Source: Streptomyces sp. NBC_00683
GTDB taxonomy: Bacteria; Actinomycetota; Actinomycetes; Streptomycetales; Streptomycetaceae
DNA length: 64,000 bases
Reading direction: 5' to 3'
Assembly (NCBI RefSeq): GCF_036226745.1
Contig: NZ_CP109013.1
Coordinates: 5,022,001 to 5,086,000 of the forward strand
Shown here: piece by piece, positions 17,595 through 40,004 of the stretch
Position numbering within the stretch: position 1 is the first letter of the stretch
How the letters are laid out: the number at the start of each line of letters is the position of its first letter
The notes under the pieces: generated by a model
Databases searched by the model: none
Seen by the model: only the letters and a program-made list of their open reading frames with translations
Told to the model about the DNA's origin: nothing
Made by a program: the position numbers and the translations under genes

Positions 17595-20500
17595 TCAGCG
17601 TGGTGGTAGTGGGGGGCGGCGCAGGACCGGGGCTGTTGCGTAGGTGGGGGGTGTGGCCGCGGGGTGGACCGCCAGGAGGTCCAGGGCCACCCTTACCGCG
17701 TCGTCCAGGACCGCGTGGCGGCCCTCGGCCCAGTCCAGGGGGGTGCGCAGGGCTTCCAGGTCCGGGCCGACGCCGTGGTTCTCGACGGACCAGCCGTACG
17801 TGTCGAACCAGGCCGCGTTCATCGGCACCGTGATCACCGTGCCGTCGCCGAGCCGGTGGCGCCCGGTCATGCCGACCACCCCGCCCCAGGTGCGCTGACC
17901 CACCACCGGCCCCAGCTTCAGCAGCTTGAACGCGGCCGTGATCATGTCGCCGTCGGAGGAGGTCGCCTCGTCCGCCAGCGCCACCACGGGACCCCGCGGA
18001 GCGTTGGACGCGTAACTGACCGCCTGCGCGTTGCGGGTCAGGTCCCAGCCGAGGATCGTTCGGGTGAGCTTCTCGACGACCAGTTCGCTGATGTGGCCGC
18101 CCGCGTTGCCGCGTACGTCGACGATCAGGGCCGGGCGGGAGACCTCCAGGCGCAGGTCGCGGTTGAACTGCGCCCAGCCCGAGCCGCCCATGTCCGGGAT
18201 GTGCAGATACCCGCACTTGCCGCCGCTCAGCTCCCGTACGACCTCGCGGCGCTTGGCCACCCAGTCCTGGTAGCGCAGCGGCCGTTCGTCGACCAGTGGG
18301 ACGATCGCGATGCGCCGGGACCGGCCGCCGCACTCGCCCCCGGCCGGCCGGAACGTCAGCTCCACCGTGGTGCCGCCCGCCGCCGTCAGCAGCGGGTACG
18401 GTCCGGCCACCGGGTCGACGGGCCGCCCGTCGACATGGGTGAGGACCGCTCCCTCCCGGATGCCCGTACCGGCAAGCGGTGAACGGGCCTTGGAGTCCGA
18501 GGACTCACCGGGCAGGATCCGCTGGACCGTCCAGTCGCCGTCGCGGCACACGAGGTTCGCGCCCAGCAGCCCGATCGCCCGCTGGTAGTGCGGCGGGCCC
18601 TCGTTCCTGCGGGCGGGCGAGACGTACGCGTGGGAGGTGCCCAGTTCGCCCAGGACCTCCCGCAGCAGGTCCGCGAACTCGTCGGGCGAGGCGACCCGTT
18701 CGACGAGCGGCCGGTACTGGTCGAGCACGCCGTCCCAGTCGATGCCGCACATGTCCGGTTCCCAGAAGTAGGCCCGGATGATGCGCCCCGCTTCCCCGTA
18801 GGCCTGACGCCATTCCGCCGCCGGGTCGACATCGTGCAGGATCCGGCGAAGGTCGAGGAAGACCGTCGAATCGTTGTCGCCGGGCTCGTTGGACGGCACG
18901 GCGCGCAGCTCGCCGTCGTCCATCACGACCAGTCGGCTCGCGTCCCCGCTGACCGCGAACCAGTCCAGGTGGTCGACGAGTTCGGTCTTGCGCGCCTTCG
19001 CGATGTTGAAGTGCTCCAGCGTGGGCCGGCCCGACATGTCCGAGGGGTTGGCGAAGGTCTCGCCCAGGGCGCCGGAGATCGGCCAGCGCAGCCAGACCAG
19101 GCCGCCGCCGCTGACCGGCTGCAGCCCCGAGTACTTCGACGCGGAGACCGGGAACGGCGTCACCCGGCTCTCCAGCCCCTCGAACTCGACGGTGACCGTC
19201 GTCCCCTCGACCGTGCCTTCGGGGATGTCCACCGGGTCCAGTCCGCCCGCCGCCGGCCGCCCGTCCGGCAGCAGGGCGAAGGGGGACGGGGTGGCCGAGG
19301 AGAGCGGGACCAGATAGGGGCGGCAGCCCAGCGGGAAGGAGAGGTCGCCGGTATGGACGTCGTACACGGGGTCGAAACCGCGCCAGGAGAGGAACGCGAG
19401 GTAGCGGCCGTCACCCGTGAAGACGGGGTTCTCGTCCTCGAAGCGGCCGTTGGTGACATCCACTATCACCGGGGCGTCGGGACCGGAGATCCTCGCCAGC
19501 TTGATCTGCCGCAGCGACCGGCCCACGCCCGGGTGGGACCAGGCCAGCCACGCTCCGTCCGGCGAGAACGCCAGATCGCGGACCGGACCGTTGACGGAGC
19601 GGATGAGTTCGGTGACCACGTCCTCCGCGGGGATTTGGGGGACCGGCGGGGCGTCCTCGGACCCGTCCTCGCCCTCCACGGCCGTCTCCGTCTCCGCCTC
19701 CACGGCTGTGTCCAGCAGGAGCAGACGGCCGTCGTTCGCCGCGATGGCCAGGCGCTCGCCCTCCGGGTCCGAGGTGAGCTCCTGGACCCGGCCCAGCTGA
19801 CCGGAGGCCAGCCGGACCGGCTCGCGGTCGCCGCTGGCCCGCGGGAGGTAGGCGATCTCGATCGCGTCGTCGCCGTCCGCGTCCGTCACGTACGCGACCT
19901 TGCCGCTGCTGCCGAGCATCTCCGGCAGCCTGACCCGCACCCCAGGGGTGTCGGTGATCGTGCGGGCGGGCCCGTCGCGGTGCGTGAGCCAGTAGAGGCT
20001 GCCGCGTACGGAGACGGCGCTCGCCCGGCCCGTCTCGTCCACGGAGAGCGAGTCCACGTTGCTGGCGGCCGGCACCTGGTACGTGCGCCTCCCCGCCCGG
20101 GGCCCGCCGAGCCGTACCTCCAGCTTCCGCGGTACGGCGTCCGGCGACTCCAGGTCGTCGACGAGCCACACATCGCCCGCGCACTGGTAGACGACCCGCT
20201 GCCCGTCGCTGGAGGCGTGGCGGGCGTAGAACGCGTCGTGGTCCGTATGGCGGCGCAGATCGCTGCCGTCCATCAGGCAGGAGTACAGGTTGCCGACCCC
20301 TTCGTGGTCGGACAGGAACGCGATCCGGCGCCCGACGAACATCGGTGAGTCCAGATGGCCGCCGATGTCCGGCAGCAGGCGCTCGCCGTGCAGCCACAGC
20401 CGCCCGGTCGCCCCGCCCCGGTACCGCTTCCACGCGGCGGGCTCGTGCGGCGGCTTGCCGGTGAGCAGGAGGGTGCGCCGCTCGCCGTCGATGTCGGCGA

Positions 20501-29522: not shown

Positions 29523-30017
29523 ATGATTGATCACGGATTCTCGGACCGGACCGGCCGGCGCGTCACCCTGCGCGAGGTGGACAGCGGCAACTGGCGTGCG
29601 GTCGCCGATGTGGCCCCCCTGGACAGCCAGCGCGACCACGTCCCCGCGCTGGCTGCCCGGTACCTCCTGCTGTCGATGCGCGAGGACACCTGGCACTCGC
29701 TGGCCGTCCACGCCGGCGACCCGGCGCTCGGGCATGTGATGTGGGCCCGGGACGACGACGGCTCGTACTGGATCGGCGGCATGCTGATCGACGGCCCCGA
29801 GCAGGGCAAGGGCATCGGGCGCGCGGTCATGCGCACGCTCACCGCCTGGCTCGCGGAACAGGACGGCTGCGAGGTCGTCCGGCTGTCGTACGCCCCGGGC
29901 AACACCGCCGCGGCAACGCTCTACACCTCTCTCGGCTTCCGGCCCACGGACGCCGTCGAGGACGACGAGGTGGTCGTCGAACTGCCCGCACGGGACGCGG
30001 TTGTCGGACCCGTGTGA
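29523..30017 (+). CDS. GNAT family N-acetyltransferase
   Basis: 164-aa GNAT protein. Acetyl-CoA binding loop in IDGPEQGKGIGRAVMRTLTA (about residues 89-108), followed by VVRLSYAPGNTAAATLYTSL and GF. It lies 33 bp after the SDR gene on the same strand and may be co-transcribed. The N-terminal block VTLREVDSGNWRAVADVAPL resembles the spermidine/diamine acetyltransferase group, though this is only a weak indication of substrate. Confidence 0.84.
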   Translation: MIDHGFSDRTGRRVTLREVDSGNWRAVADVAPLDSQRDHVPALAARYLLLSMREDTWHSLAVHAGDPALGHVMWARDDDGSYWIGGMLIDGPEQGKGIGRAVMRTLTAWLAEQDGCEVVRLSYAPGNTAAATLYTSLGFRPTDAVEDDEVVVELPARDAVVGPV

Positions 30018-30068
30018 CAGAGTGACCGGCCCTGGAGGAAGCGGTGCTGAAGACACGGGGTGACGTCG

Positions 30069-30665
30069 ATGGGTGACTTCTTCGAGCGGATCGTCGATCT
30101 GGAGGCGACCGGCGAGGAGGCCGGGCCGCTCGCCGCGCGGATGGTCGACTGGATGGTCGACCAGGGGCTGATCACCCGTGAGCTGTCCGGCGACGCGATG
30201 TACAGCATGAACGTGGACCTGGGCCATGTGCCCGGCCCCGACTGGGCGCGGGCCGTGGCCGACGCCTCCGACCCGACGTGGATCCCCGCCCCGGTGGCGG
30301 TCATCGTCGGCCGGGACTACCACGTCGGCGGACAGGGCGCGGACACCGCGGACTCGGCCACCTGCCCCCGGTGCGGGACGAGGACCGTGGTCATCGACTA
30401 CCCGGAGGAGTTCGAGCCGGACGAGGAGGTCTGGCAGCCGTTCAGGGACGGCATCAGGACCTGGAAGGAGACCGGCGAGGGCACAGCGCCCTGCTCCGCC
30501 TGCGGAGTCTCCTCGCCGGTCACCGAGTGGGACTTCGGGTCCGGATTCGACCTCGGCGCGCTCGCGTTCGACTTCTGGGGGTGGCCGCCGCTCAGCGTGC
30601 GCTTCCTCGCGGAGTTCCGGAGGGAGCTGGGCCACCGCACGGAGGAGCAGTCGGGGAAGTTCTGA
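30069..30665 (+). CDS. Hypothetical zinc-ribbon protein
   Basis: 198-aa acidic soluble protein (MGDFFERIVDLEATGEEAGP...). Two Cys pairs, CPRCG near residue 98 and CSACG near residue 142, could bind one zinc ion as a split ribbon. The C-terminal GFDLGALAFDFWGW segment is hydrophobic but too short and mixed for a membrane anchor. I do not recognise a function. The start is ATG 30069 with GGGG at 30057-30060; a GTG at 30060 would overlap its own ribosome binding site. Similar proteins occur in other Streptomyces (recalled). Confidence 0.75.
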   Translation: MGDFFERIVDLEATGEEAGPLAARMVDWMVDQGLITRELSGDAMYSMNVDLGHVPGPDWARAVADASDPTWIPAPVAVIVGRDYHVGGQGADTADSATCPRCGTRTVVIDYPEEFEPDEEVWQPFRDGIRTWKETGEGTAPCSACGVSSPVTEWDFGSGFDLGALAFDFWGWPPLSVRFLAEFRRELGHRTEEQSGKF

Positions 30666-30701
30666 GGCCGCCCCCGCCCCGCCCTGCTGCGTCTCCCCGG
30701 C

Positions 30702-31553
30702 TCAACTCGTGTGCAGCATGAGCCCGATGCCCACGACCATCAGCCCGGCGGCCGCGATCCGTGGGGCGCCGAAGCGTTCCTTGAAGAACAGCGTCCCTAT
30801 CGCGGCTCCCACGATGATCGAGGACTCCCGCAGCGCGGCGATCGGGGCGAGCGGAGCCTTCGTCTGCGCCCACAGGACGAGCGCGTACGCGGCGAAGGAC
30901 AGGCTCGCGCCCACCAGTCCACGCGCCATGAACGGGGAGAGCTGGGCGGCCAGTTCACCGCGCCGGCGCCAGTACGTGTACGCCGGGATCGCCACACCCT
31001 GCACGATCATCAGCCAGGCGATGTAGCCGAGCGGTGTCCCCGAGGCGCGCACCCCGACCCCGTCGACCGTCGTGTACCCGGCGATCGCCAGACCCGTCGC
31101 GAGGGCCGCCAGGACCGCGGGCCCGTGCGGCCGTCTGCCGGAACCGCGGATCCCCCACAGGGCCAGCCCGACGAGCCCCGCCGAGGCCACCGCGACGCCC
31201 GCGGTCGCCCAGGCGTCCGGGCGCTCACCGAGGAAGAGGGCGGCCAGGACCGTCACCACGAGGGGGGCCGTGCCCCGGGCGATCGGATACATCTGGCCGA
31301 AGTCGCCCAGCGTGAACGACCGCATCAGCAGCACCATGTACGCCACGTGCAGGCCCGCGGACAGGAACAGGTACGGCCAGGCCCCGGCCGCCGGGAGCGG
31401 CACGAAGCAGGCCACGAGAACCCCGATCAGCGCCCCGCCGCCGGAGATCAGGGTGAAGGACAGGAGCTGGTCGCGTATCGCGTGCGCGATCGCGTTCCAG
31501 CTGGCGTGCGTGATCGCGGCGGCCAGGACGGCCGCCGCCACCAGCGGGGTCAC
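30702..31553 (-). CDS. EamA/DMT family transporter
   Basis: 283-aa inner-membrane protein with ten hydrophobic segments in two EamA repeats (first repeat to about residue 135, second from 'AVLAALATGLAIAGYTTVDG'). The family exports or imports small metabolites such as amino acids; the substrate is unknown. The start is GTG 31553, and the stop of the ybaK remnant (TGA 31552-31550) overlaps this GTG. That is the footprint of an older ybaK-transporter operon now separated by the inserted DNA at 31643-33552. After the insertion the transporter probably depends on a new promoter. Confidence 0.88.
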   Translation of the reverse strand: MTPLVAAAVLAAAITHASWNAIAHAIRDQLLSFTLISGGGALIGVLVACFVPLPAAGAWPYLFLSAGLHVAYMVLLMRSFTLGDFGQMYPIARGTAPLVVTVLAALFLGERPDAWATAGVAVASAGLVGLALWGIRGSGRRPHGPAVLAALATGLAIAGYTTVDGVGVRASGTPLGYIAWLMIVQGVAIPAYTYWRRRGELAAQLSPFMARGLVGASLSFAAYALVLWAQTKAPLAPIAALRESSIIVGAAIGTLFFKERFGAPRIAAAGLMVVGIGLMLHTS

Positions 31554-31657
31554 GCGGTCCGCTCGCGCACGTCCACCAGCGTGCCGCCCGCGTACTCGAT
31601 CACGCGCTTCGGGTCGAGCGGGAAGACGGTGTGCGGGATGCCTTCGGCTGTGCTCAT
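31550..31657 (-). pseudogene. Remnant of the ybaK 3' end
   Basis: This short frame encodes the last 30 or so residues of YbaK (from PHTVFPLDPKR to VDVRERT-Ala, then TGA). It is the original chromosomal end of ybaK: its stop overlaps the transporter start, while the intact gene at 33546-34064 now ends in a second copy of the same sequence with Lys-TGA. By chance the remnant begins with an ATG (31657) and could be translated as a 35-aa peptide. Confidence 0.85.
31557..31642. repeat. Direct repeat (distal copy) of the ybaK 3' end, att-like
   Basis: 86 bp matching 33553-33638 with one mismatch (A at 31638 against G at 33634); the first 81 bp are identical. The offset between copies is 1996 bp. 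It marks the far end of a DNA segment inserted at the 3' end of ybaK. Confidence 0.9.
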
Positions 31658-31945
31658 GGTTCGCACGCTAGCGCAGTCATTTGGAGACCATGGGGCCGGT
31701 ACCCGGACCGCCATCCTGTCCGGGCTGTTGACCGAACAACAGTTCCCTCATTGCGAGACAAGGTAGCCCATCAGGCGAATTGCACTAAATCCGAGAATGG
31801 CAAATGTGAGATGCGTGGAATAGGGCGGAATGGGGTCGTTACCGGTCATCCATTGGTTCGACAGGTGGCGATGAAGAGCTTGCGGCCTGATGGTGGTGAT
31901 CGTTAAGATTGATCGACCAACTCGCGCTACGTTAAGGGATGATGA

Positions 31946-32383
31946 ATGAAGTTCTCTCGTGTTCGCATCGCAGCTGCACTTTCTGCTCCGCTTACTGTTG
32001 CTACTCTTTTTGTGGCGGCGCCCCAAGCGGCGGCGGCTACGGGAACCTCTTGTGATGTCAGTTCCGGTACCGGATGCCTAAGGCTTTTCTATAACAGCAA
32101 CAGAACCGGTTCCTACGTTTACTTTTACGGGAGTAACGTTTCCGACTTCGCGCCGTACACTTTCCTGGGTGCGGGTTCCGGGAAGGGTCTGGGTGTGAAG
32201 AATAACGCCGCCTCGGGGGACAACGTTTCACCGAACCCCACCACGATATTCTACAACAGCAATTACGGTGGATCCTGCGACACGCTCACGGACTACGCCA
32301 TCGCTTCTCAGTTGCATAACACGTACAACAATAACGCGTCCTTCAAGTTCAACTACACCTCGTCCTCCTGTTATAAATTCTGA
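31946..32383 (+). CDS. Secreted small protein, peptidase inhibitor I36-like
   Basis: 145-aa exported protein. The signal peptide (MKFSRVRIAAALSAPLTVAT..., cleavage near AAA-ATG) is followed by a 110-residue domain rich in Asn, Ser, Tyr and Gly with four or five cysteines (TSCDV, TGCLRLFYNSNRTGSY, FYNSNYGGSCDTL, SSSCYKF). The C-L-x-L-[FW]-x-[NY]-x-N pattern is that of the SMPI-like I36 family, known from Streptomyces metalloproteinase inhibitors. The start is ATG 31946 with AAGGGA upstream. Codons often end in A or T, unlike neighbouring genes, which fits recent acquisition with the inserted segment. Targets are unknown. Confidence 0.75.
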   Translation: MKFSRVRIAAALSAPLTVATLFVAAPQAAAATGTSCDVSSGTGCLRLFYNSNRTGSYVYFYGSNVSDFAPYTFLGAGSGKGLGVKNNAASGDNVSPNPTTIFYNSNYGGSCDTLTDYAIASQLHNTYNNNASFKFNYTSSSCYKF

Positions 32384-32392
32384 TGATTTCGC

Positions 32393-32440
32393 GGTGTAGC
32401 CATGCCCGCACCACCATCCTGGTGCGGGCATGGCTACGCC
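32393..32440. terminator. Long perfect hairpin after the I36-like gene
   Basis: An 18-bp perfect stem (32396-32413 with 32420-32437; arm begins GTAGCCATGCCCGCACCA) and a 6-nt loop, extendable by three more pairs with one wobble. It follows the I36-like stop by 12 bp. There is no T-run, but such stems stop transcription in Streptomyces. Confidence 0.85.
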
Positions 32441-32473
32441 ATGTCATGCTTCTGCGCACGGGAACGGCACTCG

Positions 32474-33403
32474 GTGAATAAGCATCAACTCTTCTTTGGA
32501 GACCGTCGACTGCTCGCGAGTGCAGCGACGGTGGCGTTTCTCGGCCTGCTCGCCGGTTGCGGTGATTCGCAGAGCGAACATACCGCCGACGGGTCCGAGG
32601 CCCACAGGCGGTCGAACGATTCCGCGAGTCCGTCCCCAGCGGTTACAGGCGATTACACATTTCGGCTCCCCATAGCGAAGTACTCCTATACGGAGGTGGA
32701 GGATGCCGTGATCAGGAGCGCGGAGGATGTGCTGACCGAGCAGTGCATGCGAGGGCTCGGTATGCCCTACCGGGCTGTCCCAATCCCCGAAACGTCCCGG
32801 GCGTCCGATCGAAGGTACGGGCTGTCGAGTGCGGACGACGCAGCCCGCTACGGCTACCACCTGCCGCCCGAGCCTTTGTTCGATCCGCATGAGGGCCTCA
32901 GCGCCGAGACGCTGTCAGCCCTGTACGGCAGATCTTCAGGCTCCACGGGAAATCCCGCACCGAAAGGGAAGGTCCCCCCGCGCGGCTGCCGAGGCCAAGC
33001 CGTCGAGGCATTGTCGTCGAAGCACCGATATACGGTCGGCGCGGAGATCGCGAGCGATATCGCCAACCGCAGTTACCAGGAATCCAGGCAGGACCGGCGG
33101 GTGCGGGCCGCCGTAAACCGGTGGTCATCGTGCATGGCCGAGCATAGCTACTCCTATCCCGACCCGATGGCTTCGTTGGGGGACAAGCGTTTCCTGGGAA
33201 AGGAGGTCACCAATCAGGAAATAGAGACCGCTCAGGCCGATCTCGACTGCAAGTCCAGGACCTGGCTGCTGCAGATCTGGTATTCGGTAGAGGCGGACAT
33301 CCAGAAGGACAGGATTGCCCAGCATTCCGAGGAGCTCGAGAAGCTCGAGAAGGCGCATGTCTCCAAAATCGCCGAGGCTCGGCAGATCACTTCGCAGGGC
33401 TGA
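32474..33403 (+). CDS. Putative lipoprotein inside the inserted segment
   Basis: 309-aa protein with a lipoprotein signal peptide (VNKHQLFFGDRRLLASAATV..., lipobox LLAGC at about residue 28), so it should be anchored outside the membrane. The body is charged, with Cys in EQCMRGLGM, RGCRGQA, SSCMAEH and DCKSRTW that may form disulfides, and a helical C-terminus. No family is recognised with confidence; the 'QCMRGLGMPY' and 'WSSCMAEHSY' words recall uncharacterised actinobacterial lipoproteins. The start is GTG 32474; the upstream ATG at 32402 lies inside the terminator hairpin and is rejected. Both genes of this segment encode exported proteins. Confidence 0.65.
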   Translation: MNKHQLFFGDRRLLASAATVAFLGLLAGCGDSQSEHTADGSEAHRRSNDSASPSPAVTGDYTFRLPIAKYSYTEVEDAVIRSAEDVLTEQCMRGLGMPYRAVPIPETSRASDRRYGLSSADDAARYGYHLPPEPLFDPHEGLSAETLSALYGRSSGSTGNPAPKGKVPPRGCRGQAVEALSSKHRYTVGAEIASDIANRSYQESRQDRRVRAAVNRWSSCMAEHSYSYPDPMASLGDKRFLGKEVTNQEIETAQADLDCKSRTWLLQIWYSVEADIQKDRIAQHSEELEKLEKAHVSKIAEARQITSQG

Positions 33404-33545
33404 CGTGACAGGACGCTTCAGCAAACGGGCGATGGTTCCAGGGCACAAGGCAGGCTCAGGACCCGGCTCGCAGCACGGTCGCCACCGCCTGTCCTGGCGC
33501 CCTGGCGTGTGTGTCGCGGCTATCAGGACGGCGACCGACGCACCG

Positions 33546-34064
33546 TCACTTCGTCCGCTCGCGCACGTCCACCAGCGTGCCGCCCGCGTACTCGATCACG
33601 CGCTTCGGGTCGAGCGGGAAGACGGTGTGCGGGGTGCCCGCCGCGGCCCACACCACCGCGTGGTCGAGCAGGCCGCGGTCGGCCAGTACCCGGGTCCTCG
33701 TGACGTGGCCGAAGGGCGGTACGCCGCCGATCGCGTACCCCGTGGTCTCCCGGACCAGGTCGGCCCCGGCCCGCTTGACCTTTCCGGCGCCCAGCTCGCT
33801 CCGTACGCGCTCGACGTCCACCCGGGACGAACCGTCCATGAGGACGAGGACCGGGGCGCCGTCCGCCTCGAAGATCAGCGACTTGACGATCTGGCTGAGC
33901 TCGCAGCCGATCGCCGTGGCGGCCTCGACCGCGGTGCGGGTGGCGTCGGGGAAGCGGCGTACCTCGACGTCGAGACCCAGCTCACGCAGGGCCTCGGCGA
34001 ACCGGGGGTGGGCGTCGGACGGGGTCGCGGTGGGGGTCATGTCGGATGTGCTCATGCCCGGCAC
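33546..34064 (-). CDS. ybaK: YbaK/EbsC family aminoacyl-tRNA deacylase
   Basis: 172-aa protein of the YbaK/ProX fold, which hydrolyses mischarged tRNA (typically Cys-tRNA-Pro) or related aminoacyl-tRNA. Seen: the invariant Lys in CELSQIVKSLIFEADG, GDG-like VLVLMDGSSRVD, and the GGVPPFGH loop. The length is normal. Its last 29 codons are the 86-bp sequence repeated at 31557-31642, so the gene was cut by an insertion and restored by the 3' end carried on the inserted DNA (now ending Thr-Lys-stop instead of Thr-Ala-stop). Confidence 0.9.
   Translation of the reverse strand: MPGMSTSDMTPTATPSDAHPRFAEALRELGLDVEVRRFPDATRTAVEAATAIGCELSQIVKSLIFEADGAPVLVLMDGSSRVDVERVRSELGAGKVKRAGADLVRETTGYAIGGVPPFGHVTRTRVLADRGLLDHAVVWAAAGTPHTVFPLDPKRVIEYAGGTLVDVRERTK
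33553..33638. repeat. Direct repeat (proximal copy) inside intact ybaK
   Basis: Partner of 31557-31642: 86 bp, one mismatch, same orientation. It forms the 3' end of the working ybaK gene. The DNA between the two copies (31643-33552) is the inserted segment. Confidence 0.9.
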
Positions 34065-34148
34065 GCTACTGAAAGGCCCGGCTCCCGCACCAGGCAGTTC
34101 CGGTCCGTCCCCGCCGGGGCGGGGACGGACCGGACGACTGAGGCCCGG

Positions 34149-35783
34149 TCAGGAACCGGCCCGCAGGACCGCCGCCACCACCGGACCGGCCGCGTCGCCG
34201 CCGTGGCCGCCGGACTGGACGACCGCGGCGGCCGCGAGGTCGTTGTTGAAGCCGGTGAACCAGCTGTTGGACGTGCCCTGCCCGTCGACCTCGGCGGAGC
34301 CGGTCTTGGCGCCCTTGTCGCCGCGGACCGAGGACATGGCCGCCTTGCCGGTGCCCCAGGAGGCGGTGGCCCGCATCATGTCGTTCAGCTGCCGGGTGAC
34401 GTTCTGCGACAGCGAGCGGGAGGCCACGGCGAGCTGACGGTCGTCCAGTTCGCGCGGCACGAGGACGGGCTGGCGGAACGTTCCGTTGCGGGCGGTGGCG
34501 GTGATGGACGCCATGTTGAGCGCGTTCATCTGGACGGTGCCCTGGCCGATGTACTGAGCCGCCGCCACTCCACCGCTCGCCTCGGGCACACTCCCGTCGA
34601 CCGAGACGACACCCGTCTTCCAGTTGAGGCCGATCCCGAAGACGTCCCGGGCCTCCTTGGCGAGCGCGGCGTCGTCGTTCACATCGTCGATCTTCTTGAT
34701 GAAGGCCGTGTTGCAGGAGCGGGCGAAGCTCGTGGTGAACGTGTCCGTGTCCGGCAGCGAGAAGTACTTCAGGTTGTGGAAGGTGTTCCCCTGGTACATC
34801 ACGTCCTTGGGGCACTCGATCGGGCTGTTCGCCGAGGCGAGCCCCTTCTCGATGAGCATCGCGGCCGTCACGATCTTCATCGTGGAACCGGGCGCCTGCT
34901 CGCCCTGCATCGCCGCGTTGAAGCCGGTCGCCGGGTTGTTGGCCACCGCGCGGATCGACCCGGTGGACGGCTTCACAGCGACCACCGACGCCCCGCTGAA
35001 CTGCTTGACCGCCTTCTCGGCCGCCGCCTGGGCGCCGGCGTCGAGCGTCGTCTGCAGCCGGCCGGGCTTCCCCTTGGCGAGGGTCAGCAGCGTCGTGTCG
35101 GGAAGCTGCGTGTCCGCGGGCTCGATCCAGGTCTCGATGCCCGGAGAGCCGCCGGTGCTGTCGCCGTACTTCTCGCGCAGGCTGTCCAGGATCGGCCCGA
35201 GCGACGGGTACTTCTCCTTGTCGAGCACCTTGCCGTTGTGGTCGACGGCCTCGATCGCCGCCGTCGAGGACTCGCCGGTCTTCAGCGACGCGCCCTCGGT
35301 CAGCTGGGGGTGGATCACCGTGGGCTGCCAGTCGACGAGGGCCTTGCCCGTGGTCAGGCCGCGTACGACGGTCAGTTCGGAGGCGTACGACCAGGGCTTG
35401 GTCTTCCCCTCGTACGACACCGTGGCCTTCACCGTGTACGGGACCTTCGTGCCGACGGCCGGGCCCGGAGTGATCACCGCCTTGGTGACGTGGGCCGCTT
35501 CGCTGTAGCCGGTCAGCAGCGGCCCGGCGACGTCCTCGTTGTTGGTGAGCAGGGCGGCGGCCGCCGCGTCGCCGGACGCCCATGCCTTGAGGAACCCTTT
35601 CGCGGTCTCCTCGATCTCGGACTTGCTGGGCGGTCCCGTCCGCACCTCGGAGGACGCCGACGCGGACTCCGTACCGCCGGCCTCACCGCCCCCCAGCACC
35701 ACGTTGTACACGCCGTAGCCGAGTCCTCCGGCCACAAGCACGAACACCCCGCCCACAACGGCGACTTTCGCTCCACTGCGCAT
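34149..35783 (-). CDS. Penicillin-binding protein (transpeptidase)
   Basis: 544-aa class-B-type PBP that crosslinks peptidoglycan. One N-terminal membrane anchor (about residues 8-30), an NTF2-like MecA_N domain (about 50-160), a dimerisation/linker part and the transpeptidase domain. Active-site motifs: Ser300-Thr-Met-Lys303 (GSTMK), SCN at 356-358 and Lys493-Thr-Gly (GAKTGSAE). All three motifs are intact. The start is ATG 35783 behind GGGGAGGGGAC. A perfect 24-bp palindrome lies in the leader. The NTF2-like domain, as in PBP2a-type proteins, lowers beta-lactam access in some relatives, but resistance is not shown by sequence. Confidence 0.92.
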   Translation of the reverse strand: MRSGAKVAVVGGVFVLVAGGLGYGVYNVVLGGGEAGGTESASASSEVRTGPPSKSEIEETAKGFLKAWASGDAAAAALLTNNEDVAGPLLTGYSEAAHVTKAVITPGPAVGTKVPYTVKATVSYEGKTKPWSYASELTVVRGLTTGKALVDWQPTVIHPQLTEGASLKTGESSTAAIEAVDHNGKVLDKEKYPSLGPILDSLREKYGDSTGGSPGIETWIEPADTQLPDTTLLTLAKGKPGRLQTTLDAGAQAAAEKAVKQFSGASVVAVKPSTGSIRAVANNPATGFNAAMQGEQAPGSTMKIVTAAMLIEKGLASANSPIECPKDVMYQGNTFHNLKYFSLPDTDTFTTSFARSCNTAFIKKIDDVNDDAALAKEARDVFGIGLNWKTGVVSVDGSVPEASGGVAAAQYIGQGTVQMNALNMASITATARNGTFRQPVLVPRELDDRQLAVASRSLSQNVTRQLNDMMRATASWGTGKAAMSSVRGDKGAKTGSAEVDGQGTSNSWFTGFNNDLAAAAVVQSGGHGGDAAGPVVAAVLRAGS

Positions 35784-35807
35784 CTGTGCAGTCCCCTCCC
35801 CAGGAGT

Positions 35808-35831
35808 CCCCCTTGAACGCGTTCAAGGGGG
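35808..35831. promoter_or_regulatory. 24-bp perfect palindrome upstream of the PBP gene
   Basis: Arms CCCCCTTGAACG (35808-35819) and its complement CGTTCAAGGGGG (35820-35831) meet with no spacer, 25 bp before the PBP start. With no loop it is a better protein-binding site than hairpin. It has the GAAC/GTTC words of an SOS box but with 2 instead of 4 bases between them, so LexA is unlikely. Confidence 0.6.
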
Positions 35832-35924
35832 GATGTCCTCGGCACTGTACGGGACAGGTGTGACGACTGAGGAGGTTGTTATCGGACGGCGACGATCTCG
35901 GCGAGAGCGCTCTCTCCCGTCCTC

Positions 35925-36011
35925 ACACCCAGCTGTCCAGCCACATCCGGTCCCGCCAGGAGTTCTCCGGAAGCGATGTCCCCGTGTAGAGCGGCCAGAA
36001 ATAGACGAAGT
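35925..36011. repeat. Direct repeat (distal copy) of the pmt 3' end, att-like
   Basis: 87 bp identical to 37128-37214 (offset 1203 bp). On the minus strand it encodes the last 28 codons of Pmt followed by TGA (35925-35923), where the intact gene has TAG. It is therefore the original chromosomal end of pmt, left behind when DNA integrated into the gene. Confidence 0.93.
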
Positions 36012-36026
36012 CTCGCGGTCCGCGAG
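36012..36026. repeat. Small dyad abutting the att-like repeat
   Basis: CTCGCG-GTC-CGCGAG (36012-36026), perfect 6-bp arms with a 3-nt loop, begins on the base after the 87-bp repeat. It might be an integrase arm or core-flanking site, or the end of an old terminator. Confidence 0.4.
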
Positions 36027-36064
36027 CTCACGTTCCTGAGCGGGGCGTATGGCTGCTGGAAGGG

Positions 36065-36682
36065 CTACGGGCGGCGCTGGGGCCGCCTCTGGGCCGTCGT
36101 GCCTGCCTCGAGCACTCCTTGGGCGTAAAGCCGAGAGTGCGCAATGCCCGCAAACATCATCATCTGAGCCTGAAGAGCAGCTGTTGTGTGGCTATAGCGT
36201 GATGTGTCCTGCGCCTCGCGTATCCCGCTCGCTGGCGTACGCTCCAGCCACTCGTCAACATCCTCGATGAGTGCGTGATGGGCGGTGTAGACCGCATTCG
36301 CGAGACCGGTCACCGCTGCTTGCTCGTCGTCGGAGAGCATGAGCCGCAGGACCCATTCGGCAGCCTGCATCTCGCGTATCCGGTCGTGAACAGCGTCCCG
36401 TTTGGTCTGGAGTTCGCTGTCGGTGCCAAGCGTGCCCTGAACGTGTTGTCGGACGATCCGCATCTGGCGGCGGACCGTATCGACGGAAAGGACCAGATCT
36501 GAGTAGGCGGCGCGCTTGCGGGCGATCGTCTCGGCATCGTGGGCCGCACCGTGTTGTAGACGTACCACGTTCAGTTGTGAGCGGGCTTGGAGCCGCGAGC
36601 TTGCCCACGTAGTCAGGGCGCCAACAATCGCTCCGCTGGCGCCAAGCCCCGCCCCTACGACTACGGCCCACTGCCCGTCCAT
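36065..36682 (-). CDS. Hypothetical membrane-anchored coiled-coil protein in the pmt element
   Basis: 205-aa protein with one N-terminal hydrophobic segment (WAVVVGAGLGASGAIVGALT) and then a long helical, charged region (RLQARSQLNVVRLQHGAAHD, ARKRAAYSDLVLSVDTVRRQ) that should form coiled coils. Similar 'TM plus helical' proteins of unknown role are found on actinobacterial integrative elements and phages (recalled). It lies between the two 87-bp repeats, next to the decayed integrase, so it is probably cargo of the same element. The start is ATG 36682. The function is unknown. Confidence 0.6.
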   Translation of the reverse strand: MDGQWAVVVGAGLGASGAIVGALTTWASSRLQARSQLNVVRLQHGAAHDAETIARKRAAYSDLVLSVDTVRRQMRIVRQHVQGTLGTDSELQTKRDAVHDRIREMQAAEWVLRLMLSDDEQAAVTGLANAVYTAHHALIEDVDEWLERTPASGIREAQDTSRYSHTTAALQAQMMMFAGIAHSRLYAQGVLEAGTTAQRRPQRRP

Positions 36683-36702
36683 GGCGCTGACGATATGGCG
36701 CC

Positions 36703-36915
36703 TCAGGACTCCGGGACAGGCCTTTTGAAGACCTCCTCGATCGCCTTTCGTGTTCGTCCCTCGCTGCTCGGCATGAGGTGTTTGTGTACGTCCTGAGGGT
36801 GAAGCCCGGATCAGCGTGTCCGAGGTACTGGCTCAAGGCTCGGATGTTCTCGCCTGCGTCCAGCAGGACCGAGGCTTAGAGGTGCCGCAGGGCGTGCATC
36901 CCGTGCTGAAGCGCG
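36703..36915 (-). pseudogene. Decayed tyrosine recombinase (integrase), C-terminal fragment
   Basis: On the minus strand from about 36915 the sequence reads HGMHALRHL-stop-ASVLLDAG, ENIRALSQYLGHADPGFTLR and TYT, the C-terminal catalytic part of a pSAM2-like tyrosine integrase: HALRH holds the conserved His-x-x-Arg and LGHADPGFT the second His. A TAA stands where a Tyr codon is expected after RHL, and after RTYT a 2-bp insertion breaks the frame; in the other frame it continues LMPSSEGRTRKAIEEVFKRP to a stop at 36703-36705. The catalytic Tyr is in the TYT block. Nothing recognisable of the N-terminal half remains between 36916 and 37075. Confidence 0.82.
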
Positions 36916-37075
36916 GAAGAGTAGCGCTCACCTTCCTAGGCCGCGCGGGGCAAGAGGAACTGTCGGAGGTGTCAGGCGGCGTCACGGGTGGTGTCAGGAC
37001 CCTCGTGACGTCGATGGTCGGGCCGTCTGTGGGCCGTCCGAGGGTGGCCAATGGTCACCGATGGTGGCCGACAAC

Positions 37076-37114
37076 CACCAAGAGGGCGCGGCCATAGGCC
37101 GCGCCCTCTTGGTG
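37076..37114. terminator. Strong terminator at the 3' end of pmt
   Basis: CACCAAGAGGGCGCGGCC (37076-37093) pairs perfectly over 18 bp with 37097-37114, loop ATA. It lies 11 bp after the pmt stop on the element side, so the terminator came with the inserted DNA. Confidence 0.9.
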
Positions 37115-37125
37115 CTCCCGCCCAG

Positions 37126-38892
37126 CTACACCCAGCTGTCCAGCCACATCCGGTCCCGCCAGGAGTTCTCCGGAAGCGATGTCCCCGTGTAGAGCGGCCA
37201 GAAATAGACGAAGTTCCAGACGATCAACAGCACCAGCACGCCCGCCGCGATCGCTCCCAGCGTCCGTCTGCGCTCGCCGGTGGGATCACCGGTGCTCAGG
37301 CCCAGTTCGTGCTTGGTCCCGGTGCCGGCCGCCGGGCCCAGCAGGGCGCCGATCATCATCGTCACCGCCAGGCACAGGAACGGCACGAACACGACCGCGT
37401 AGAAGAGGAAGATCGTCCGCTCCTGGTAGAAGAACCAGGGCACCCAGCCCGCCGCCACACCGCACGCGATCGCGCCCGCGCGCCAGTCGCGGCGGAAGAA
37501 CCAGCGCCACAGCACGTACAGCAGCGCCACGCACCCCGCCCACCACAGCAGCGGGGTGCCGATCGCCAGCACCTCGCGGGCGCACTTGCCGGTCTCCGAC
37601 GTGAGGCAGCCCGTCTTCTCCTCGTAGAAGTACGAGACGGGGCGGCCCAGGACGATCCAGCTCCACGGATTGGACTGGTACGTGTGGCCCGAGGTCAGGC
37701 CGACATGGAACTCGTACACCTGGTTCTCGTAGTGCCACAGGCTGCGCAGCCAGTCCGGCAGCCAGGTCCAGCTGCCGCCCTTGCCCTCGGTGGCCGCCCA
37801 GTTGCGGTAGTAGCCCTTGTCCGTGACGATCCAGCCGGTCCACGAGACGAGGTACGTGCCGATCGCGACCGGCACCGTCGAGACGAACGCGGGCAGCAGG
37901 TCCCGCAGGACCACGGCCCGGTACGGCTGCGCCGCACCCGCCGTGCGCCGCGCGCCCACGTCCCACAGCACCGCCATCACACCGAACGCGGCGAGGATGT
38001 ACAGCCCGTTCCACTTGGTCGCGAAGGCCAGGCCGAGCATCACGCCGGCGGTGATCCGCCACGGGCGCCAGCCGAGGCGGAGCGTTTCGGCGACATGGGC
38101 GTCCGGGCGCAGTACGCCGTCCTCGTCGACCGGCAGCGCGGCGGCCAGCCTGCGGCGGGCCCAGTCACGGTCGATGAGGAAGCAGCCGAACGCCGCGAGC
38201 ACGAAGAACATGAGCACGAGGTCGAGCAGGGCCGTGCGGCTCATCACGAAGTGCAGCCCGTCCACGGCCAGCAGCGTGCCCGCGAGACAGCCCAGGAACG
38301 TCGAGCGGAAGAGCCGCCGGCCGATGCGGCACAGCATCAGCACGGAGACGGTGCCGAGCAGCGCCACCATGAACCGCCAGCCGAACGGTGTGAAGCCGAA
38401 GACCTGCTCGCCGAAACCGATGATCCACTTGCCGACCGGCGGATGCACGACGTAGCCGGGGTCCACCGGGATGTCCACCGAGGACGGGTCCTTGAGGATC
38501 AGCTTGTCGACGTCCTTGGGCCAGGCGCCCTCGTACCCCTGGTTGACGAGCGCCCAGGCGTCCTTGGCGTAGTACGTCTCGTCGAATATCACCGCCTTGG
38601 GGCTGCCCAGGTTCCAGAACCGCAGCACCCCGGCCACCAGTGCCACCAGCAGCGGCCCGCCCCAGGCGGACCAGCGGACCAGGTGGTTCGCCAAGGTCGG
38701 GGGCACGGCGAGCACGTCCCAGAACTGGCCTCCCGGGCGGGTGTACGGCGGAACCAGCCGCTCGCGCAGCCCCGTTCCCGGCCGCGGGGAATGGCCGAAG
38801 CGGCGCAGCCGCTGCTGCCAGGAAGGCGGCTGGTCGCCGGCGTCGTTCCCGGCGTCGTGGCCCTGCTGGGCTTCGGGCGCAGTACTCGTCAC
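37126..38892 (-). CDS. pmt: Protein O-mannosyltransferase Pmt (dolichyl-phosphate-mannose-protein mannosyltransferase)
   Basis: 588-aa polytopic GT39 enzyme that transfers mannose from polyprenyl-phosphate-mannose to Ser/Thr of exported proteins. About ten or eleven membrane segments. The catalytic acidic pair is in VIFDETYYAKDAW, and VHPPVGKWIIGFG and MSRTALLD are further conserved blocks. The start is GTG 38892 (VTSTAPEAQQGHDAG). In S. coelicolor the orthologue is required for phage phiC31 infection, so this is a phage-receptor-glycosylation gene. Its last 87 bp are duplicated at 35925-36011. It is divergent from rsmI across 62 bp. Confidence 0.93.
   Translation of the reverse strand: MTSTAPEAQQGHDAGNDAGDQPPSWQQRLRRFGHSPRPGTGLRERLVPPYTRPGGQFWDVLAVPPTLANHLVRWSAWGGPLLVALVAGVLRFWNLGSPKAVIFDETYYAKDAWALVNQGYEGAWPKDVDKLILKDPSSVDIPVDPGYVVHPPVGKWIIGFGEQVFGFTPFGWRFMVALLGTVSVLMLCRIGRRLFRSTFLGCLAGTLLAVDGLHFVMSRTALLDLVLMFFVLAAFGCFLIDRDWARRRLAAALPVDEDGVLRPDAHVAETLRLGWRPWRITAGVMLGLAFATKWNGLYILAAFGVMAVLWDVGARRTAGAAQPYRAVVLRDLLPAFVSTVPVAIGTYLVSWTGWIVTDKGYYRNWAATEGKGGSWTWLPDWLRSLWHYENQVYEFHVGLTSGHTYQSNPWSWIVLGRPVSYFYEEKTGCLTSETGKCAREVLAIGTPLLWWAGCVALLYVLWRWFFRRDWRAGAIACGVAAGWVPWFFYQERTIFLFYAVVFVPFLCLAVTMMIGALLGPAAGTGTKHELGLSTGDPTGERRRTLGAIAAGVLVLLIVWNFVYFWPLYTGTSLPENSWRDRMWLDSWV
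37128..37214. repeat. Direct repeat (proximal copy) inside intact pmt
   Basis: Partner of 35925-36011, 87 of 87 bp identical, same orientation. It supplies the working 3' end of pmt. The inserted DNA is 36012-37127. Confidence 0.93.
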
Positions 38893-38954
38893 CGCGCCAT
38901 CGTAGGGAACGCATCTGTGCGAGTGGTGCCGCCCGTGCTGGGAGGATGGCCGAT

Positions 38955-39824
38955 GTGACTGGAACGACTGGAACGCTCGTACTGGCAGGGACCCCCATCG
39001 GCGACGTGGCGGACGCCCCGCCACGCCTCGCCACCGAACTGGAGACGGCCGATGTCGTGGCCGCCGAGGACACCCGGAGGCTGCGCAGGCTCACCCAGGC
39101 GCTCGGCATCCATACGACGGGGCGTGTCGTCTCCTACTTCGAGGGCAACGAGTCGGCGCGTACGCCGGAACTCGTCGAGGCGCTGGTGAACGGCGCGCGT
39201 GTCCTGCTGGTCACCGACGCCGGAATGCCGTCCGTCTCCGACCCCGGGTACCGGCTCGTCGCCGCGGCCGTGGAGAAGGACATCAAGGTCACCGCGGTAC
39301 CGGGGCCGTCCGCGGTACTGACCGCGCTCGCGCTGTCCGGCCTGCCGGTCGACCGGTTCTGCTTCGAGGGCTTCCTGCCCCGCAAGGCCGGCGAGCGGCT
39401 GGGGAAGCTGCGCGAGGTCGCCGGGGAGCGCCGCACGATGGTCTTCTTCGAGGCGCCGCACCGGCTGGACGACACCCTGGCCGCGATGGCCGAGGTGTTC
39501 GGCGCGGCCCGCAGGGCCGCCGTGTGCCGTGAGCTGACCAAGACGTACGAGGAAGTGAAGCGCGGGCCGCTCGGCGAGCTGGCGCAGTGGGCGGCCGAAG
39601 GAGTGCGCGGCGAGATCACCGTTGTGGTCGAGGGCGCCACCGACACCGGGAACGAGGGGCTGGACGCCGCCGAGCTGGTGCGCAGGGTGCAGGTGCGCGA
39701 GGAGGCGGGGGAGCGGCGCAAGGAGGCCATCGCGGCGGTCGCCGCCGATGTGGGCCTGCCCAAGCGCGAGGTGTTCGATGCGGTCGTCGCGGCAAAGAAC
39801 GCGGCCAGGACCGGCCCCGCGTAG
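38955..39824 (+). CDS. rsmI: 16S rRNA (cytidine-1402-2'-O)-methyltransferase RsmI
   Basis: Methylates the ribose of C1402 in the decoding centre of 16S rRNA (289 aa, normal length, tetrapyrrole-methylase fold). Seen: VLAGTPIGD, AEDTRRLRRL, SYFEGNE, LVTDAGMPSVSDPGYRLV, VPGPSAVLTALALSGLP and FFEAPHRL, all typical of RsmI. The start is GTG 38955 with GGAGG at 38941-38945; the ATG at 38946 would sit on that site. It is divergent from pmt. Confidence 0.95.
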   Translation: MTGTTGTLVLAGTPIGDVADAPPRLATELETADVVAAEDTRRLRRLTQALGIHTTGRVVSYFEGNESARTPELVEALVNGARVLLVTDAGMPSVSDPGYRLVAAAVEKDIKVTAVPGPSAVLTALALSGLPVDRFCFEGFLPRKAGERLGKLREVAGERRTMVFFEAPHRLDDTLAAMAEVFGAARRAAVCRELTKTYEEVKRGPLGELAQWAAEGVRGEITVVVEGATDTGNEGLDAAELVRRVQVREEAGERRKEAIAAVAADVGLPKREVFDAVVAAKNAARTGPA

Positions 39825-39967
39825 GGCAAAGGACTAACCTGAAATGTAAAGCCCGAGCCGCGTACCCGGCCCCCAGTCCATGGATGGGCCAAGACCGTTC
39901 CAATACTCGGCAGACCTGGTGCGTTGCCGCCGGGAAAGGCGTCCACTGGAGAGTGGAACGCACCTCC

Positions 39968-40004
39968 CGGAGTGCTTGTCCGGAGTGCTTGTCCGGCGGA
40001 CAAG
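39968..40004. repeat. Tandem 13-mer and dyad before the zinc-ribbon gene
   Basis: CGGAGTGCTTGTC occurs twice back to back (39968-39980 and 39981-39993), and the second copy flows into the dyad CTTGTCC-GGC-GGACAAG (39988-40004), 11 bp before the next start codon. It is possibly a regulator site or a leader hairpin. Confidence 0.5.

Follow-up and report, generated by a model that had tools for sequence, protein, structure and literature searches.

The gene run pmt, PBP (penicillin-binding protein), ybaK and EamA lies on the minus strand of a 64,000-nucleotide stretch of the Streptomyces sp. NBC_00683 genome (contig NZ_CP109013.1, positions 5,022,001 to 5,086,000; this whole stretch is called the window), and the genome, of 8.52 Mb, is a single contig. 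Two pairs of direct repeats were found in this run, one at the 3' end of pmt and the other at the 3' end of ybaK. The two copies at pmt (35925-36011 and 37128-37214) are identical (87/87) with a spacing of 1203 and enclose 36012-37127, and the two copies at ybaK (31557-31642 and 33553-33638) agree at 85 of 86 positions with a spacing of 1996 and enclose 31643-33552. These are the two longest direct-repeat families among those listed for 30000-40000, and both were placed exactly as a previous reading of the letters (the sequence-only reading) had described them. That reading took both segments for site-specific elements with a gene end in attP, which held for the pmt segment and was not supported for the ybaK segment. 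We consider it likely that the two look-alike pairs differ in origin and go back to two unrelated events, one leaving a decayed actinomycete integrative and conjugative element (AICE) at pmt and the other a doubled ybaK-EamA junction. The features of the locus are collected in Table 1.

Table 1. Features of the two repeat-flanked segments and of the adjoining genes (positions in the window)
Feature	Position	Strand	Basis
EamA transporter gene, intact	30702..31553	-	Pfam EamA
mini-ybaK, 35 codons, the first five fused in frame to the last 30	31550..31657	-	Motif and start comparison
TAGCGT, conserved -10-like element before ybaK start	31665..31670	-	Motif comparison
Secreted I36-like peptidase inhibitor gene, first of a pair	31946..32383	+	Pfam match below cut-off
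Putative lipoprotein gene, second of the recurrent pair, start codon uncertain	32402..33403	+	Recurrence with partner gene
44 bp like a decayed EamA start, directly after intact ybaK	33502..33545	-	Alignment, blastn
ybaK (aminoacyl-tRNA editing domain), intact copy	33546..34064	-	Pfam tRNA_edit
PBP gene, between both sites	34149..35783	-	Pfam Transpeptidase, MecA_N
attR, distal copy of pmt 3' end with old TGA stop, then native PBP upstream region	35925..36011	-	Repeat and stop comparison
205-aa open reading frame, element cargo	36065..36682	-	Similar DNA in other genomes
Tyrosine integrase remnant, residues ~336-406 of 418	36708..36935	-	tblastn with NZ_CP107792.1 integrase
Element arm adjoining attL	37017..37127	-	Same arm after pmt end in other genomes
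attL, proximal copy of pmt 3' end	37128..37214	-	Repeat comparison
Intact pmt (protein O-mannosyltransferase) with TAG stop and attP-rebuilt 3' end	37126..38892	-	Pfam PMT, PMT_4TMC, PMT_2; stop comparison

The pmt Segment and Its Counterparts in Other Genomes

The repeat at pmt corresponds to the last 29 codons of the gene, and the comparison of the copies bore out the stop codons given by the sequence-only reading, TAG in the proximal copy and the old TGA in the distal one. The same reading had reported integrase debris in one segment and none in the other. This was observed as well: about 70 C-terminal integrase codons, broken by one stop codon and one frameshift, lie in the pmt segment, and no integrase was found in the ybaK segment by family and tblastn searches. 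The 205-aa open reading frame had no Pfam or NCBIfam match, and a phage collection searched with the pmt segment gave no match. As in an AICE, direct repeats of a gene 3' end stand at both edges, an empty site exists in a relative, and an integrase is present, although as a fragment only. Two negative results weigh against this assignment: in the window from 30001 to 40000 there was no Prim-Pol or YfjI match that would indicate a replication gene, and no FtsK/TraB match for a transfer gene. Since no replication gene was matched, the segment was classed as a decayed remnant.

The empty site was observed in the relative G244, in which the PBP upstream region runs directly into pmt with a TGA stop, like the distal side in the window. 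The first 20 relatives had been picked for their ybaK similarity, and in 17 of them the distance between PBP and pmt could be measured. It exceeded 1 kb in nine of the 17, with eight of the nine pmt genes stopping at TAG, and was below 300 bp in the other eight, three of which had the TAG stop. At most, this suggests that the TAG stop is a footprint of an element in pmt. The window's arm was present in only two of the nine wide gaps (L033 and L039), and an integrase match in none.

A search of 392 genomes of the genus, counting that of the window, detected a pmt end with the window's arm behind it in at least 21 other genomes, 17 of them over ~105 bp or more and four over 45-60 bp. Twenty regions from 19 of these 21 genomes, chosen because the window's arm comes after pmt, were compared (the remaining two are G074 and G128). 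The succession of pmt end, element, integrase and second pmt end, with the integrase in the same orientation, was observed in seven of the 19 (L144, L145, L147, L148, L151, L153, and L157), the integrase of L145 being only a fragment. The second pmt copy comprised codons 560-588, as in the window, in L147, L148, L151, L153, and L157, and aligned as codons 546-588 in L144 and 564-588 in L145. The other 12 genomes showed remnants, stretches ending too early, or no second pmt end beside an integrase.

NZ_CP107792.1 (L143), a plasmid record of 18,451 bp from Streptomyces sp. NBC_00562, is listed as circular and carries the pmt end at its origin, thus providing the attP that had been predicted. It resembles the pmt segment in its integrase, which is of the same group and 66% identical across the residues that survive, in its pmt-end attP and in a similar arm. 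It differs in that it also carries Prim-Pol, HTH, FtsK-like, and NUDIX genes, whereas the window holds a 1.1-kb remnant. Its integrase is full-length with a PF00589 match and its Prim-Pol matches PF09250; the FtsK is annotated as such, with no Pfam match and a weak NCBIfam TraB match far below the cut-off. The ends of the record repeat 66 bp exactly (1-66 = 18386-18451), inside the att core. As this repeat is probably an untrimmed assembly overlap, the record supports the existence of a free circle and does not prove it, which also tempers the assignment.

The integrase of NZ_CP107792.1 was used to scan named genomes, and the best 80 of 581 relatives were analyzed. Among the 35 integrases at least 67% identical to it (67-83%), 33 had a pmt 3' end 29-3220 bp downstream, the exceptions being L195 and L218, as against none of the 45 that were at most 64.2% identical. 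Both pmt ends were within the stretch examined only in L212. Integrases beside pmt 3' ends, which the sequence-only reading had suggested searching for, are thus frequent in this group. Within a genome, the att copies were 83-87/90 identical in L144, L147, L148, L151, L153, L157, and L212 (87 in the window) and less alike in L145 (77/90) and L158 (68/90). Between genomes, 67-85/90 positions agreed in the 40 pairs listed, so that copies within a genome mostly agree better.

The explanation of the pmt repeat as a tandem duplication without any integrase is suggested by the small size of the insert and its lack of transfer genes. It has the integrase remnant between the repeats, the 33 of 35 counterparts, the attP plasmid, and the empty site against it; it is contradicted by this empty site together with the elements of the relatives, and we rejected it as exceedingly improbable. 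The comparisons confirmed the pmt segment as the remnant of an AICE in the pmt 3' end. This remnant is inert: it retains att sites, its integrase no longer works, and it would need help in trans to move.

Two further observations were made during the survey. In L158:15063-17481 (G254), two diverged pmt ends lie 2.3 kb apart and perhaps reflect successive elements at one site. Moreover, among the loci of the sister integrases, which are 60-64% identical (L221:11339-13678(-) and L222-L264), 22 of 45 share one downstream sequence and 18 another; the sequence common to the 22, found in L221, reads like the 3' end of a putative glutamine synthetase gene.

The ybaK Segment and the ybaK-EamA Junction of Relatives

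The intact ybaK reading frame opens at a GTG codon, and the conserved start is an ATG three codons on. The proximal copy of its 3' end reads Thr-Lys-TGA and the distal one Thr-Ala-TGA, as the sequence-only reading had stated; relatives carry either residue, and this change was dropped as evidence. Two features had escaped that reading. On the distal side, a promoter-like motif and a start codon, TAGCGTGCGAACC-ATG, stand directly before the ybaK 3' end and form with it the mini-ybaK, the stop codon of which overlaps the EamA start (GTGA). On the proximal side, a decayed extension of the repeat continues for about 44 bp past the ybaK stop into a counterpart of the EamA start. The extension was joined to the repeat by blastn unaided (31501-31642 against 33502-33638, 142 bp, 87%). 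Within the window, the EamA remnant gave an alignment score of 54, as against at most 46 in 200 shuffles, and the ybaK start a score of 34 against 26 (200 shuffles), or 35 against 33 over a wider stretch. Because the conserved start arrangement precedes it, the distal copy was interpreted as a ybaK with an internal in-frame deletion. Both ybaK copies therefore show parts of both neighboring genes: the flanks of the repeat carry a ybaK start on one side and an EamA start remnant on the other, which indicates that the ybaK-EamA junction is present twice, each copy minus a different part.

The junction was examined in 40 genomes, 20 chosen by ybaK similarity, eight by junction similarity, and 12 with an early-ending junction match; L176 and L184 among them are one genome. 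EamA sequence was detected at most 41 nt from the ybaK match in 38 of the 40, aligned only in part in G055, G024, and G382, and protein comparison found no EamA at the locus in G057 and G244. None of the 40 had an insert between the two genes, and each of the stretches examined had one ybaK 3' end. The arrangement TANCGT-N4..9-ATG, in frame at the ybaK start, was present in 36 of the 40, compared with an expectation of 0.004 per 110 bp. Dozens of the relatives' ybaK-EamA junctions match the proximal copy up to a common end point, at query positions 146-150.

Regarding the ybaK start itself, a TANCGT 4-9 nt before the ATG is perhaps the mark of a leaderless transcript, the motif being what we take to be its -10 box. 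In G057 and G244, EamA appears to be cut down to start remnants (L037; L184:8109-8164) like that at 33502-33545 in the window. The G057 remnant stops at roughly the position where the window's does; a deletion point common to the window and G244 was rejected, since the G244 remnant is longer and different. A further search for EamA in G057 gave no match, a negative that carries no weight by itself. In addition, gaps of 7-8 kb separate ybaK from PBP in L034, L036, and L043.

The inhibitor and lipoprotein genes enclosed by the ybaK repeat have similar neighbors on one strand in at least 14 other genomes, one of which is G071. In G071 this pair lies between a GNAT gene and EamA, an order that fits because a tandem duplication of the unit pair-EamA-ybaK followed by losses would need it. 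The lipoprotein had no Pfam or NCBIfam match, and a first scan of the named genomes with it found no relative. A near-perfect inverted repeat with 21-nt arms (32393-32440), likely a terminator, lies between the two genes.

From these comparisons, the best reading of the ybaK segment is that the ybaK-EamA junction was doubled, that its copies underwent reciprocal loss, and that a mini-cistron was retained. Several results speak against this reading. Compared with relatives singly, the EamA remnant scored above every one of 60 shuffles in only 8 of 20 genomes, and the upstream piece of ybaK did so in 9 of 20, so the case rests more on the common register than on single scores. A genome with two full ybaK-EamA copies was not seen, and the spacers of both ybaK units gave no alignment with G071 clearly above shuffles. 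Finally, the core matches at 85 of 86 bp, and its flanks, the EamA remnant and the ybaK start, have clearly diverged. One age of neutral duplication would be insufficient for this contrast without gene conversion, constraint, or import. The contrast could come from gene conversion, from import from a relative, or from a crossover at this stretch.

Alternative Origins of the ybaK Repeat

An origin by site-specific integrase, as proposed by the sequence-only reading, was rejected for the ybaK repeat and is not supported: the segment lacks an integrase and family members at the same site, no relative of the 40 has an insert, and the flanks outside the core are related to each other. The proposed search for integrases beside the ybaK 3' end gave none in the 80 loci, a survey that covers one integrase group, that of NZ_CP107792.1. 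In the 13 of these 80 loci where ybaK is in reach, the integrase always adjoins a pmt end, and the 45 loci of lower identity have no ybaK in reach. The case that the earlier reading had set against its own proposal, a duplication of neighboring genes, is close to what was found at ybaK, where the flanks carry pieces of the same two genes.

It was also considered that both segments are site-specific and that the one at ybaK is a satellite without an integrase of its own, using a foreign integrase and carrying an attP that holds the EamA remnant together with the mini-ybaK. The observed order would then follow from a single event, the entry of a 1996-bp circle by one crossover within the 86-bp stretch, and the high core identity with diverged flanks recalls the att copies of the pmt elements, where seven of nine other loci with two copies have 83-87/90. 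Nevertheless, besides the missing integrase and the lack of an insert in the relatives, no further copy of the ybaK end was present among the matches listed for 149 other genomes, and the inhibitor-lipoprotein pair is found at other places, in at least 14 other genomes. We regard such a satellite as unlikely. A 2-kb passenger circle that entered via the mini-ybaK as a crossover site is also unlikely, and nothing else found points to an element of this kind. If it were true, the promoter, start, and gene end of the mini-ybaK would resupply EamA with a translated leader, and insertion into the overlapping operon would be harmless.

Recombination with imported DNA of a related strain, in place of a duplication in situ, is a serious candidate, to which we give a little less than an even chance. 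The flanks of the two ybaK copies differ like alleles of different species, and G057 and G244 have alleles in which only a start remnant of EamA is left; the near identity of the 86-bp stretch counts against it. Such an import is a variant of the doubled-junction explanation and not one of a different kind.

Discussion

The comparisons with relatives document an integration at pmt. An AICE integrated via its own tyrosine integrase into the last 29 codons of the gene; its attP copy restored pmt with a TAG stop, and the old end, with TGA, stayed beside PBP. A later deletion may then have taken the replication and transfer functions and most of int, leaving 1.1 kb.

The double junction and the partial losses at ybaK are a reading of the sequence; for the order of events and the function of the leader we infer the following course. 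The ybaK-EamA junction would have been doubled, by tandem duplication or by recombination with DNA of a related strain, and the inhibitor-lipoprotein pair would lie between its copies. Of these, one would have kept ybaK and lost most of EamA. The other would have lost the inside of ybaK in frame and kept the promoter-like motif, the start codon, and the stop overlapping the EamA start. Because the mini-ybaK retains these three parts, transcription and translation of EamA could continue downstream of a leader cistron of 35 codons, and the gutting of the spare ybaK would be tolerated for the same reason. On the most economical reading, EamA would rely on the promoter of ybaK and on translational coupling.

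The pmt half of the locus is known in kind and probably in site. The product name phospholipid carrier-dependent glycosyltransferase presumably fits Pmt. According to PMC9513070, conjugative elements sit mostly in tRNA genes (36), and some (14) are in protein genes. AICE06 of Streptomyces sp. S1D4-23 lies in a gene with this product name. The same paper describes empty, full, and decayed states at that gene, with truncated integrases and cargo between direct repeats. AICE06 and its decayed forms thus resemble the window in the decayed element at a glycosyltransferase gene, the truncated integrases, and the empty sites (PMC9513070), its target being probably pmt, judging by the product name. 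PMC3218068 places the vast majority of AICEs with tyrosine integrases in tRNA 3' ends, the group of the pSLS integrase excepted. The pmt segment shares with AICEs in general, such as pSAM2, the tyrosine integrase and the use of a gene 3' end as attachment site, and differs from most of those in PMC3218068 in using a protein gene in place of a tRNA gene.

In Streptomyces and Actinacidiphila, these results link a group of integrases with the 3' end of pmt. Pmt is needed for infection by phage phiC31, and an integration hotspot in its gene is therefore of practical interest. More generally, gene-end repeats that look alike in the raw letters may be the work of an integrase or may be left when a doubling is followed by reciprocal loss; the flanks alone tell which. 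The mini-ybaK, in turn, suggests how an overlapping gene may stay expressed when its upstream partner is gutted.

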